Positions 6,466 to 47,789 of a stretch of 64,000 nt of DNA are shown here, one piece after another. Below the pieces are notes generated by a model. The model worked only from the letters and a program-made list of their open reading frames with translations, ran no database searches and was not told the DNA's origin. The DNA is from an uncultured Cryomorphaceae bacterium. GTDB lineage: Bacteria; Bacteroidota; Bacteroidia; Flavobacteriales; Schleiferiaceae. The first letter of the stretch is position 1; each line of letters begins with the position of its first letter. Where the stretch lies: NCBI GenBank assembly GCA_937120475.1, contig CAKZJV010000007.1, positions 822,068 to 886,067 of the forward strand, given 5' to 3'. The translations under genes and the position numbers were made by a program.

Positions 6466-7329
6466 GTGAAAGTGGTACGCTTCATTTTCAGCTATAAAGG
6501 TTTATTGGTAATGATTGGAATTTTTATCGGTTTAATAGTGGCTACCAACTTTTTTTCCTTCTCCGCCAGTGAAAAGGACATCCAGGAAGCCTTTGCCAAT
6601 ACCGGATTTTCACCGGAAGATCATTATTCCGAAAGCACGGAAGGTAAGCTTCACTACGTAACCGTGGGTGATCCGTCCAAACCACCTGTATTGTTAATTC
6701 ATGGTTCACCGGGGAGTTGGGATAACTGGTTGGATGTAATCACCAAAACCGATTTTTTGGATCACTATTTTGCCATTGCCATTGACCGTGCGGGATACAA
6801 TAAAACCACGCTTACAGGAAAATATTCGTTGCAGGAGCAATCGGCCTTTTTAGAACCCCTTATTCACCAATACTGCAAGCCTTGTGTTGTTGCCGGGCAT
6901 TCCTATGGCGGAGCCCTGGCCCTGCAAACGGCTAAAGATTACCATTCATCGGTTAGCGCTGTAATTTCAGTGGCCGGTACTGTAGCCGATAGTCTTCAGG
7001 ACCCTCGTTTCTACAACTACATCCTGAAATATACCCCTCTAAAGTGGATCATCGCCAATAACCTAATGGCCAGCAACCGCGAAATGATGGGGCTGGAAGA
7101 AGACTTACCCAAAATGGAAGCTGGCTTATCCGGTTTTAAAGGAAAAGTGGCTCTGATACAGGGAAATGAAGATGTACTGGTACATCCGGACTCACCCGCT
7201 TACCTTAAACCCAAATTCTCCCCATCGGCACAAGTACGACTGTTCACGCGCGATGAAATGAATCACTTTGTAATATGGAGCGATAAAGACCTGGTGATGG
7301 AAGCCCTGGCGTGGGCCCACCAAAATTAG
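6466..7329 (+). CDS. Membrane-anchored alpha/beta hydrolase
   Basis: 287 residues. An N-terminal hydrophobic segment (about 11-28) anchors the protein in the inner membrane or exports it. The hydrolase core shows the oxyanion loop HGSPG (79-83), the nucleophile elbow GHSYGG with S146, acid D236 (GNEDVLV) and H267 (MNHFV), so the triad is complete. The substrate cannot be inferred. The start is GTG at 6466, needed to keep the basic residues before the anchor. It is divergent from the C1 peptidase gene (56 bp between starts), and its 3' end overlaps the convergent gene at 7326 by 4 bp. Confidence 0.8.
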   Translation: MKVVRFIFSYKGLLVMIGIFIGLIVATNFFSFSASEKDIQEAFANTGFSPEDHYSESTEGKLHYVTVGDPSKPPVLLIHGSPGSWDNWLDVITKTDFLDHYFAIAIDRAGYNKTTLTGKYSLQEQSAFLEPLIHQYCKPCVVAGHSYGGALALQTAKDYHSSVSAVISVAGTVADSLQDPRFYNYILKYTPLKWIIANNLMASNREMMGLEEDLPKMEAGLSGFKGKVALIQGNEDVLVHPDSPAYLKPKFSPSAQVRLFTRDEMNHFVIWSDKDLVMEALAWAHQN

Positions 7330-7700
7330 GCGGCCCGGGCAATAAACTCCACGCGGTAAAAAGCCTTGGCCAGCTTAACCGCTTTTCCTTTAGCGTTTAC
7401 TTCGTGCATAAATATTTTAAGGGTCTGCTCTTTTTTTCCGGATGGGTAAACCTGTGCCTTTATAAATAGCTTTTCACCCTGGCCGGGAGCTTGTAAAAGA
7501 TCCATATTAACGGCCTTTACGCTTTCGGTAAAACCACGGGGCAGGGCTGATGCCATGCGTTTGAGCATAAGCTGGGCACTGGTTTCTATGAGGTTTAGCG
7601 CCTGCCATTGGGAACTGGGATATTCGGCAGCACTAACGGGCACTACTTTTTGCCATTGTGCCTTATGGCTTTGTTCGAGAATCTTGAATACATCTTTCAT
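7326..7700 (-). CDS. Hypothetical protein, possibly hotdog fold
   Basis: 124 residues, cytoplasmic. Its layout (an N-terminal helix ALNLIETSAQLMLKRM, then alternating strands VKAVNMDLLQAP, KLFIKAQVYPSGKKEQTLKIFMHEV and KAFYRVEFIA) is compatible with a hotdog-fold thioesterase-like or acyl-carrier dehydratase-like domain, but no catalytic motif is recognisable, so this is a weak inference. The ATG overlaps the stop codon of a 37-codon ORF just upstream in an ATGA arrangement, which suggests translational coupling. It is convergent with the alpha/beta hydrolase. Confidence 0.55.
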   Translation of the reverse strand: MKDVFKILEQSHKAQWQKVVPVSAAEYPSSQWQALNLIETSAQLMLKRMASALPRGFTESVKAVNMDLLQAPGQGEKLFIKAQVYPSGKKEQTLKIFMHEVNAKGKAVKLAKAFYRVEFIARAA

Positions 7701-7810
7701 AATAGCGGTGGTCTTTCAAAGGTGGGAGGATCAGTGAATTTTCTACGTTTCACATTTTGCGAATGCATACAATTGGACCAGCGGTAATACATGGATGTGT
7801 GATTTTTCAT
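7697..7810 (-). CDS. Small ORF B (37 residues), coupled to the gene at 7326
   Basis: An ATG at 7810 opens a frame starting MKNHTSMYYRWSNCMHSQ, followed by NVKRRKF and ending ERPPLL. Its TGA overlaps the next ATG (ATGA). The peptide is basic, with a single Trp. It shares a pattern with small ORF A upstream: MK..T, then W-[SN]-N, one to four residues, then S(x)NVK and basic residues. No known family is recognised. The coupling and the shared pattern argue for translation, but a chance ORF cannot be excluded. Confidence 0.45.
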   Translation of the reverse strand: MKNHTSMYYRWSNCMHSQNVKRRKFTDPPTFERPPLL

Positions 7811-7828
7811 GATGTTGAAGTTTAATTC

Positions 7829-7862
7829 AAAAAAAAAGCCCCCGGTGTTTCCGGGGGCTTTT
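7829..7862 (-). terminator. Strong terminator between small ORFs A and B
   Basis: GCCCCCGG (7838-7845) pairs with CCGGGGGC (7851-7858) around a 5-nt loop. Nine A residues (7829-7837) give a nine-T tract on the minus strand, and four T residues follow on the plus strand, so it may work both ways but much more strongly leftward. It sits 21 bp after the stop of small ORF A and 18 bp before the start of small ORF B. Confidence 0.88.
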
Positions 7863-7883
7863 CAAATTTCTCAAAGTTTAAAA

Positions 7884-7979
7884 TTATATCGGTTGCCCCC
7901 TATGCATACGGTTCTTCTTCACATTTGAATAAATGCGATTGTTCCAGCATTGCATGGTATGGGTAAAAGTTGTTTTCAT
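7884..7979 (-). CDS. Small ORF A (31 residues), possible leader peptide
   Basis: An ATG at 7979 opens a 31-codon frame starting MKTTFTHTMQCWNNRIYS, followed by NVKKNRM and ending HRGQPI, and stops at TAA 7884-7886. It is basic, with one Cys and one Trp, and matches small ORF B in the core W-x-N ... S(x)NVK plus basic residues. The terminator follows directly, so the transcript would be a tiny mRNA unless read-through occurs. This could be a stand-alone small protein or an attenuation leader. The gap from 7701 to 8046 otherwise holds only this ORF pair and the terminator. Confidence 0.5.
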   Translation of the reverse strand: MKTTFTHTMQCWNNRIYSNVKKNRMHRGQPI

Positions 7980-8046
7980 TACTATTTCAAATGTAACCAA
8001 ACTCTCTTGAATAACAAGCTACCACCTTTTATATTTTAGCATCCGT

Positions 8047-8469
8047 ATGAAAAGAATGCTTTTCTTCTATGGCTTACTGGCCTTCGCCTTGCTCATGCTC
8101 TTTCAGTTGAGCAAGCTTTGGCTGTTTCAAAGCGACCTGGCCGCAGAATGGATCATCCTGCCGGTAGCGATTGTTTCGATAGTGATCGGCACCTATTTTG
8201 GCCGTAAACCGGATGACAAAAACCCGGCTCTTTCGCAGGATGAAAATAAAATCGATCAGCAAGCCCTAGGGCAAACGGGTATCTCACCCCGTGAATACGA
8301 GGTTTTAAAACTCGTATCAGAAGGCCTTTCCAACAAGGAAATTGCTGAACGCTTGTTTGTTTCTGAAACCACCGTAAAAAGCCACGTATCCAACCTACTC
8401 CTTAAACTGGATGCCAAAAGACGAACCCAGGCCGTGAACAAAGCCAAGGATCTCAACATCCTACTTTAG
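8047..8469 (+). CDS. Membrane-anchored LuxR-type transcriptional regulator
   Basis: 140 residues. Two hydrophobic helices (about 5-25 and 32-52) are followed by a short linker and a C-terminal LuxR/GerE helix-turn-helix (about 78-138, [27 protein letters not shown] then [15 protein letters not shown]). There is no receiver domain, so control is not by ordinary phosphotransfer; a membrane signal is likely. In flavobacteria this architecture often lies beside a DUF4199 gene, as here (next gene at 8555). Its stop codon lies inside the first copy of a duplicated palindrome that may be its operator. Confidence 0.85.
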
Positions 8470-45473: not shown

Positions 45474-47789
45474 ATGACAAAAAACACCTTCCTTACCATA
45501 CTGCTCCTGCTGCCCTTGCTGGGGCTGGCTCAAAAGAGCTATACCCTCAGCGGTTACGTTGAAGACAGTGAGTCGCGGGAAAGGCTCATTGGCGTAAACC
45601 TGTACATTCCCGGTACCAGTATCGGTACCACCACCAACACCTTTGGTTTTTATTCACTTACTTTAAAGGAGAGTGATACCCGGCTAACGGTGAGCTACCT
45701 GGGTTACCAATCTCAAACGTTCAATCTGCAGCTCAAAAACGATACGGTATGGGATATCGAACTGGTATCTTCCAGCCGCTCGCTGGACGAAGTAACTATA
45801 ACGGCCGACCAGATCCAGGCCTTAAAGCCGCAAATGAGCACGGTGAACCTATCGGCCCGTGACATCAAGAATATACCGGCCTTTTTGGGTGAGGTGGACG
45901 TAATACGCGCCATTCAGCTTTTGCCGGGTGTACAGTCGGGTAACGAAGGTACCACCGGTTTTTACGTTCGGGGCGGATCACCTGATCAAAACCTGATACT
46001 GCTGGATGGTGTACCGGTGTACAACGCCTCCCATCTTTTCGGCTTCTTTTCGGTTTTCAATGCCGATGCCATTAAAAATGTGCAATTGACCAAAGGTGGC
46101 TTTCCAGCGCGTTTCGGGGGACGGTTAAGCTCTGTACTGGAAATAGATATGAAAGAGGGTAATCTGCGTGAGTTTCACGGGGCCGGTTCGCTGGGGCTGA
46201 TCTCCTCCAAGCTAACCCTGGAAGGGCCGCTGGTAAAGGATAAAACATCCTTCATCGTTTCCGGGCGCAGAACCTATTACGACCTTCTGGTGCAGCCCTT
46301 TTTGCCGGATGGGCTCACTGTAGGGTATTATTTTGGCGACCTCAACACCAAGGTCAACCACATATTTTCACGTAAAGACCGTTTGTACCTGAGTTATTAT
46401 ACCGGCCTGGACCGCTTCTATCAACGTGAAACCTACGATGGTTTTGGCTATGAAGAGCGTTTTGAATCCTCCTTACAATGGGGAAATCATACCGGCTCAC
46501 TGCGGTGGAACCACCTTTTTAACGACCAGTTGTTCAGCAACCTTACCGCCACCTACACGCAATACCGTTTTAAGGTAGGTTTTGAAGAGGAGTATAGTGG
46601 CCAAACCGATGGCTTTGAGTACTTTTCACGCATCCGCGATTACGGCCTGCGCTACGATATGGACTACCGCCCCAGTTCAGACCATAGTTTGCGTTTTGGA
46701 GCAAGTTATACCTACCATACCTTTAACCCGGGTGTAGCGCAATTTCAAGGCGGTTTTACCGATGAGGGAGCTGATTCCCTGCTCAACCTCTCTACCCCCA
46801 TTTACTCCAATGATGCTTATGTTTACGTGGAAGACGATTGGGTAATCGATTCGCGTTGGCGGGCCAATATGGGTATCCATTACTCCACTTACCTGGTAGG
46901 CAGTACTTTTTATCACTCCCTGCAACCGCGTGCCTCAGTACGTTACTTGCTTACTGATGAGTGGTCGGTAAAAGGCTCCTACGCCATGATGAACCAGTAC
47001 ATTCACCTGCTTTCCAATTCGGGCTTGAGCCTGCCCACCGATTTGTGGGTATCGTCCACTGAGAAAATAAAGCCACAGCTTTCGCACCAGGTGGCCGTAG
47101 GTAGCGTGCGCAACATCCTTCAAAATAAGTACGAGCTATCAGCCGAAGCCTATTACAAGCGCATGAACAACCTGATTGAATACAAGGAAGGTGCTTCTTT
47201 TATCACCTCAACCGATTGGCAAAACACAGTGGTTAATGACGGGGTGGGCCATGCCTATGGGCTTGAACTTCTTTTTCGCAAAAATGAAGGTCAAACCACC
47301 GGCTGGATCGGTTATACCCTGGCCTGGAGTAACCGACAATTCAGCGAGTTGAATAACGGGGAACGTTTCCCTTATAAATACGACCGCAGGCATGACATCA
47401 GTGTAGTGGTAAACCACAAGTTCTCCGAACGTTTCGACCTGGGAGTCACCTGGGTTTTCGGCAGCGGCAACACCTACACGGCTCCTATTGCCAGTTACTA
47501 CCTCCAGGATCCTTTTAACCCCAACGGCACCCCGCGTGAATACCAGGTTTACAGTGACCGTAACTCCCTGAGGTTACCCGCTTATCACCGCATGGATGTT
47601 GGCTTTAACTTTCATAAAAAAACGCGCTGGGGCATGAGCCACTGGAACATTAGTGTGTACAATGCCTACAACCGCCAAAATCCTTTTTTCCTGTACATCA
47701 ATGAAAACTATATGACCGGTGAAAAGAGTGTTCGCCAGGTTAGCCTGTTCCCTATAATCCCCTCAATTTCCTACAGTTTTGAATTTTAA
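45474..47789 (+). CDS. TonB-dependent receptor 2, without STN domain
   Basis: 771 residues from the ATG at 45474. A signal peptide (ending LGLAQ) is followed directly by a carboxypeptidase-regulatory-like domain (about 20-100, YTLSGYVEDSESRERLIGVNLYIPGT), a plug (about 120-230, FYVRGGSPDQNLILLDGVPVYNASHLFGF) and a barrel ending YSFEF. It is clearly paralogous to receptor 1 along its whole length but lacks the STN domain, so it can import but probably not signal. The gene pair with its own DUF4249 partner suggests duplication of the module. Confidence 0.93.
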   Translation: MTKNTFLTILLLLPLLGLAQKSYTLSGYVEDSESRERLIGVNLYIPGTSIGTTTNTFGFYSLTLKESDTRLTVSYLGYQSQTFNLQLKNDTVWDIELVSSSRSLDEVTITADQIQALKPQMSTVNLSARDIKNIPAFLGEVDVIRAIQLLPGVQSGNEGTTGFYVRGGSPDQNLILLDGVPVYNASHLFGFFSVFNADAIKNVQLTKGGFPARFGGRLSSVLEIDMKEGNLREFHGAGSLGLISSKLTLEGPLVKDKTSFIVSGRRTYYDLLVQPFLPDGLTVGYYFGDLNTKVNHIFSRKDRLYLSYYTGLDRFYQRETYDGFGYEERFESSLQWGNHTGSLRWNHLFNDQLFSNLTATYTQYRFKVGFEEEYSGQTDGFEYFSRIRDYGLRYDMDYRPSSDHSLRFGASYTYHTFNPGVAQFQGGFTDEGADSLLNLSTPIYSNDAYVYVEDDWVIDSRWRANMGIHYSTYLVGSTFYHSLQPRASVRYLLTDEWSVKGSYAMMNQYIHLLSNSGLSLPTDLWVSSTEKIKPQLSHQVAVGSVRNILQNKYELSAEAYYKRMNNLIEYKEGASFITSTDWQNTVVNDGVGHAYGLELLFRKNEGQTTGWIGYTLAWSNRQFSELNNGERFPYKYDRRHDISVVVNHKFSERFDLGVTWVFGSGNTYTAPIASYYLQDPFNPNGTPREYQVYSDRNSLRLPAYHRMDVGFNFHKKTRWGMSHWNISVYNAYNRQNPFFLYINENYMTGEKSVRQVSLFPIIPSISYSFEF

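Follow-up and report, generated by a model that had tools for sequence, protein, structure and literature searches.

A putative transcription attenuator with a compositionally defined leader peptide upstream of a predicted hotdog-fold gene in the Schleiferiaceae

Two very short open reading frames lie one after the other, split by a hairpin, directly before a small gene on a 64,000-nucleotide stretch of DNA (the window) from an uncultured Cryomorphaceae bacterium (GTDB family Schleiferiaceae; assembly GCA_937120475.1, contig CAKZJV010000007.1). What do they do there? ORF A (7884..7979, minus strand; 31 codons) encodes the predicted leader peptide MKTTFTHTMQCWNNRIYSNVKKNRMHRGQPI. ORF B (7697..7810, minus strand; 37 codons) encodes MKNHTSMYYRWSNCMHSQNVKRRKFTDPPTFERPPLL, a putative second leader with a sensor-like first half and a Pro/Leu tail. 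Between them stands an intrinsic terminator (7829..7863, minus strand) with a 13-pair stem and a 5-nt loop (7863-7833), followed by nine T. The stop codon of ORF B overlaps by ATGA the start of gene C (7326..7700, minus strand), which encodes a protein of 124 aa. The coordinates, lengths and head-to-tail order of the mini-ORFs, the nine-T terminator and the overlap with the next gene are all as the sequence-only reading had described them. It had also assigned the mini-ORFs to no known family, and Pfam indeed returns nothing above cut-off for ORF A, ORF B or gene C. Rfam gives no match at the gathering score for the locus, and its below-threshold matches are driven by the terminator.

The most probable answer, at roughly 0.85, is that the locus is a ribosome-mediated transcription attenuator before gene C. 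Attenuation (a leader, a terminator and a coupled mini-ORF) had been suggested from the sequence alone, and it is strongly supported by four features that the sequences themselves display: a covarying alternative pairing, the placement of the promoter, a frame-specific composition of the leaders and a conserved layout.

The predicted antiterminator pairing excludes the terminator and covaries between species. In the window, the antiterminator strand GGGGGC (7895..7900, minus strand) lies within the last codons of ORF A and is complementary to the terminator 5′ arm GCCCCC. At the other loci a stretch of the leader, inside or ending the ORF, is likewise complementary to the 5′ arm of its own terminator, in letters that differ from locus to locus: GGGGTGCC/GGCGCCCC in L006, GGGAAGCACCTC/GAGGTGTTTCCC in L017, GGAGAAGCA/TGCTTCTCC in L020 and GTGAAGGC/GCCTTCAC in L021 (leader/terminator arm). 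Across 13 loci, about one per genus, the helix exceeds dinucleotide shuffles with a combined Fisher p=1.5e-12; the own leader/terminator pair beats every swapped pair in 11 of the 13, and the observed own-pair sum was reached by 0 of 100,000 swap permutations. Weaker antiterminators occur in L057 (one internal mismatch), L014 and L041. When the RNA is folded only as far as the terminator 5′ arm, the antiterminator helix is part of the minimum-energy fold at all 10 loci tried, and no protecting hairpin over the antiterminator strand was seen in the folds. A small hairpin, CCGCAAT..ATGTGG, recurs inside ORF A (in L021 and L029-L044 of one genus, and in L017), with a Trp codon in its 3′ strand; it could be a polymerase pause hairpin.

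The layout is what relatives keep. Gene C homologues were found in 42 of 88 genomes of the source’s family, where, counting good genomes, 11 of the 19 genera have them; outside it they occur in one further family of the order. Of the 46 loci examined, some of which were read by eye where the script failed, all but L054 and L056, which are cut by contig ends, have gene C preceded by a small leader ORF and a terminator-like hairpin. A U-run follows the hairpin at every uncut locus but L045. The leader and terminator thus stand directly upstream of gene C in no fewer than 11 genera of the family, and in the second family as well. Most genera have no ORF B, and gene C then mostly starts 13-33 nt past the terminator. 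This spacing leaves little room for a separate promoter, so gene C at these single-leader loci would most simply be read by read-through of the terminator. Leader peptide sequences, by contrast with the layout, are hardly conserved, and no peptide motif common to leaders across genera was found. Even in L012, with a gene C at 83% identity, the peptide of ORF A is MKNTITHIVNCQSKRSYNMMRWAVYWGFFN and that of ORF B MKNHNNMYQWSFVNANCKRHTMELFTKPPTPISLPPLL. Within the source genome, 464 kb (the window and 20 sampled stretches) contain 77 strict terminators and no second site that combines a leader ORF, an antiterminator strand, a terminator and a gene start, and a peptide search detected ORF B nowhere else in the genome.

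A putative Bacteroidota -7 promoter box, TACATTTG (TAnnTTTG; 7988..7995, minus strand), ends 8 nt short of the ORF A start codon, so the transcript would start almost at that codon. The box corresponds to the known -7 element of the phylum (PMC7366714, PMC9723704). With the pattern TAnnTT[TCA][GA], which was loosened after inspection of the data, a box ending 4-14 nt before the leader ATG is present in 33 of 36 distinct leaders, against 4.6% per 26-nt window in the control.

Leaders share composition, not sequence, and this composition is retained in relatives whose peptides have otherwise diverged. With one locus per genus, 58% of residues in the sensor part of ORF A have side chains that contain nitrogen or sulphur, compared with 26% in proteins (p=7e-28); this residue class was picked after the ORF A data had been seen, and ORF B and the distant L064/L086 leaders (see below) served as separate checks. 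The same part contains 1 acidic residue in 253 and 88 Asn, His, Trp or Met. Frames +1 and +2 of the same DNA give 28% N/S residues each, 16-21 Asn/His/Trp/Met, and 13 and 21 stops. In ORF B, codons 2-22 reach 64% N/S residues with 0 acidic in 168, and its other frames 37-40%. At least 50% N/S residues together with no acidic residue characterize 78% of 37 leaders, 1% of 186 intergenic small ORFs and none of 229 protein N-termini. Compared with the proteins of the source genome, the eight most enriched residues are His, Trp, Met, Asn, Cys, Gln, Arg and Lys; compared with random codons of equal base composition, Trp, Met, Asn and His remain enriched and Lys, Arg and Cys do not. Asp, Glu, Leu and Gly are strongly excluded. 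This frame specificity is evidence that the leaders are translated. The sequence-only reading had pointed to codon-level conservation as a check on the ORFs, and within one genus ORF A leans that way (pN/pS 0.75 in frame vs 1.2-1.3 out of frame); the evidence is weak, and the values suggest a leader peptide whose sequence is weakly constrained. No run of a single regulatory codon was found in the leaders, their composition being mixed. A classical single-amino-acid leader of the trp/his type is ruled out, as there is no codon run and gene C is not biosynthetic; sensing through queuosine codons (Asn, His, Tyr, Asp) is ruled out as well, with Asp absent and Tyr not enriched.

The proposed mechanism would run as follows. 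Transcription would start at the ORF A start codon or within a few bases upstream. A ribosome translating ORF A to its stop would cover GGGGGC, the terminator would form and transcription would end before gene C. A ribosome stalled in the middle of ORF A, rich in Asn, His, Trp and Met, would leave GGGGGC to pair with the terminator 5′ arm, and gene C would be transcribed. Because the antiterminator strand lies under a ribosome finishing ORF A, full translation should favour termination and an upstream stall should permit transcription; we infer the direction of the response (stall, gene C on) from this geometry. Where a Trp codon is present, it mostly precedes the antiterminator strand by 8-27 nt, and given the ribosome footprint a stall at such a codon would often leave that strand free. 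Failure of ribosomes to load on ORF A would likewise give read-through, since nothing in the folds shields the antiterminator strand.

ORF B occurs in three genera of two families (g1, g9 and the second family f2), overlapping gene C by ATGA in g1 and g9 and separated from it by a gap in f2. It would act as a further leader, its sensing half resembling that of ORF A, and would hand over to gene C through the overlap. Where its stop overlaps the gene C start, translation of gene C is probably coupled to that of ORF B. A translation-attenuation hairpin between them is unsupported: no hairpin within ORF B that would hide the gene C start was better than shuffles (p 0.15-0.94). Alternatively, and this is possible though doubtful, ORF B is the remnant of a second tandem attenuator that lost its terminator and was kept for the overlap of its stop with the start of gene C. 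Its first half does share the leader composition, and at a distant locus in another family (L086/L064) a YciA-like hotdog thioesterase gene is preceded by two complete tandem attenuators, whose leaders, MNFNKTVCKMRRKHSNERLVAFML and MKLNNYKRQTLNHTVMCRCAHSLQGEDMS, have that composition too. In L086 (G689 C19, gene 46609-47049) a separate leader ORF, antiterminator strand and terminator belong to each of the two. Against a mere remnant, the composition of ORF B is still maintained, with no acidic residue, and its Pro/Leu tail recurs in two families (..RPPLL, ..LPPLL, ..IPLLL, ..LPDLIL across g1, g9 and f2); both suggest that ORF B is under selection.

Composition suggests that the signal is a joint shortage of several amino acids, either scarce ones or those whose side chains contain nitrogen or sulphur. 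In its full form this reading is tentative: the leaders, built from the eight amino acids of the N/S class and emptied of acidic residues, would be collective sensors that report nitrogen or sulphur limitation, a shortage of the whole group rather than of one amino acid. The thioesterase-like gene would then be switched on past two checkpoints in series, ORF A acting on transcription and ORF B on translation. A less likely source of the stall, on the same attenuator, is ribosome-targeting antibiotics or general translation stress, as in lmo0919, vmlR and toiL. The pairing logic would be identical, because any stall or lack of translation upstream of the antiterminator strand leads to read-through; the mixed composition without a single regulatory codon would fit, and there are known uORFs that respond to more than one class of drug (PMC12121999) or that act in several layers (PMC9226507). 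A drug sensor, however, would need neither the strong exclusion of Asp, Glu, Leu and Gly nor peptides enriched in Asn, His, Trp and Met, and gene C appears thioesterase-like rather than a ribosome-protection or efflux protein.

It is improbable that the leader is an arrest peptide binding a ligand in the exit tunnel, as in TnaC, with the frequent Trp as its key. The distance of the Trp codon from the antiterminator strand in most leaders would suit such an arrest, but from genus to genus the Trp changes position and no motif is kept. ORF A bears what we take to be a superficial likeness to TnaC, with its W12 and a Pro close to the C-terminus; L012 lacks both W12 and the C-terminal Pro, and the likeness, not conserved in relatives, is ruled out.

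The sequence-only reading had also seen a motif common to ORF A and ORF B, and hence a possible pair of paralogous small proteins; neither idea held. The similarity (WNNRIYS-NVKKNR/WSNCMHSQNVKRRK) is not significant against shuffles (p=0.07), and W[SN]N..NVK is absent from all other leaders tested, including that of L012, so the shared motif is ruled out as a real feature. That ORF A and its terminator form an independent small-protein gene, with A and B as paralogues, is very improbable: both look translated and are similar in size and composition, but relatives keep pairing and composition while hardly keeping the peptides, and in most of them gene C starts just 13-33 nt past the terminator.

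The product of gene C is predicted to be a hotdog-fold, thioesterase-like protein. Its AlphaFold2 model has a pLDDT of 87.9, and its top-ranking structures in the PDB are hotdog thioesterases (Foldseek probability 1.00, TM about 0.5-0.64), the closest folds being thioesterases of the PaaI, 4-hydroxybenzoyl-CoA and DHNA-CoA types. A Glu in the central helix is 90% conserved. Gene C, which has no part in amino-acid biosynthesis, is a lone gene flanked by one for an alpha/beta hydrolase and by a divergent one for a LuxR-type regulator (8047-8469, plus strand), which starts 52 nt from the leader’s -7 box. This regulator may act on the leader promoter, since a similar divergent gene, judged by eye, lies upstream in L006.

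The locus combines known elements in an unusual way. Like the trp, his and thr leaders, it has a leader ORF, an intrinsic terminator and a mutually exclusive antiterminator, and a stall is expected to give read-through. Unlike them, it uses a mixed amino-acid alphabet instead of a single-codon run, has its antiterminator strand within the final codons of the ORF, where complete translation would itself be silencing, and targets a lone hotdog-fold gene, with a second coupled leader in some genera. In lmo0919/HflXr of Listeria, vmlR of Bacillus and toiL of Escherichia coli, any uORF stall activates the downstream gene, as proposed here, but peptide composition and target gene differ. vmlR has several layers of control (PMC9226507), and toiL senses several stresses (PMC12121999) and acts by translation and Rho, whereas the gene C locus has an intrinsic terminator. 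The Salmonella mgtCBR leader (PMC3641672) also has two short ORFs in series as tandem attenuators; phylum, target and signals are different, and ORF B overlaps the regulated gene and lacks a terminator of its own. In the same phylum, leader-peptide attenuation candidates of the same general mechanism have been proposed for Flavobacterium psychrophilum from transcriptome and structure, and their targets are amino-acid biosynthesis operons (PMC9723704). A literature search of incomplete coverage found no leader of such composition and none before the gene C family.

YciA-like genes offer further observations. Four of them (L058, L060, L062, L063) have Cys/Met-rich mini-ORFs upstream, e.g. MKATQTYLFNSHRGCCMPMSRRCMC and MKANKLHHRYIHQGCCMPVCCCC, which look like leader peptides for sulphur amino acids; no terminator was seen there by eye. 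Four others (L059, L061, L087, L091) lie directly 3′ of genes that, on inspection of the DNA by eye, look like methionine-biosynthesis genes (for homoserine acetyltransferase or a cystathionine-lyase-like enzyme).

The gene C leader is thus probably an attenuator with a compositional, probably multi-amino-acid sensor, with a second coupled leader in the source genus. Attenuators typically sense one amino acid or one drug. This lineage keeps composition alone, apparently to give the ribosome a joint sensitivity to several amino acids, and the proposed starvation-sensing logic at gene C becomes testable. Composition by frame, together with an antiterminator inside the ORF, offers a route to such leaders where sequence searches fail, and the attenuator gives a physiological lead for an uncharacterized hotdog-fold family.
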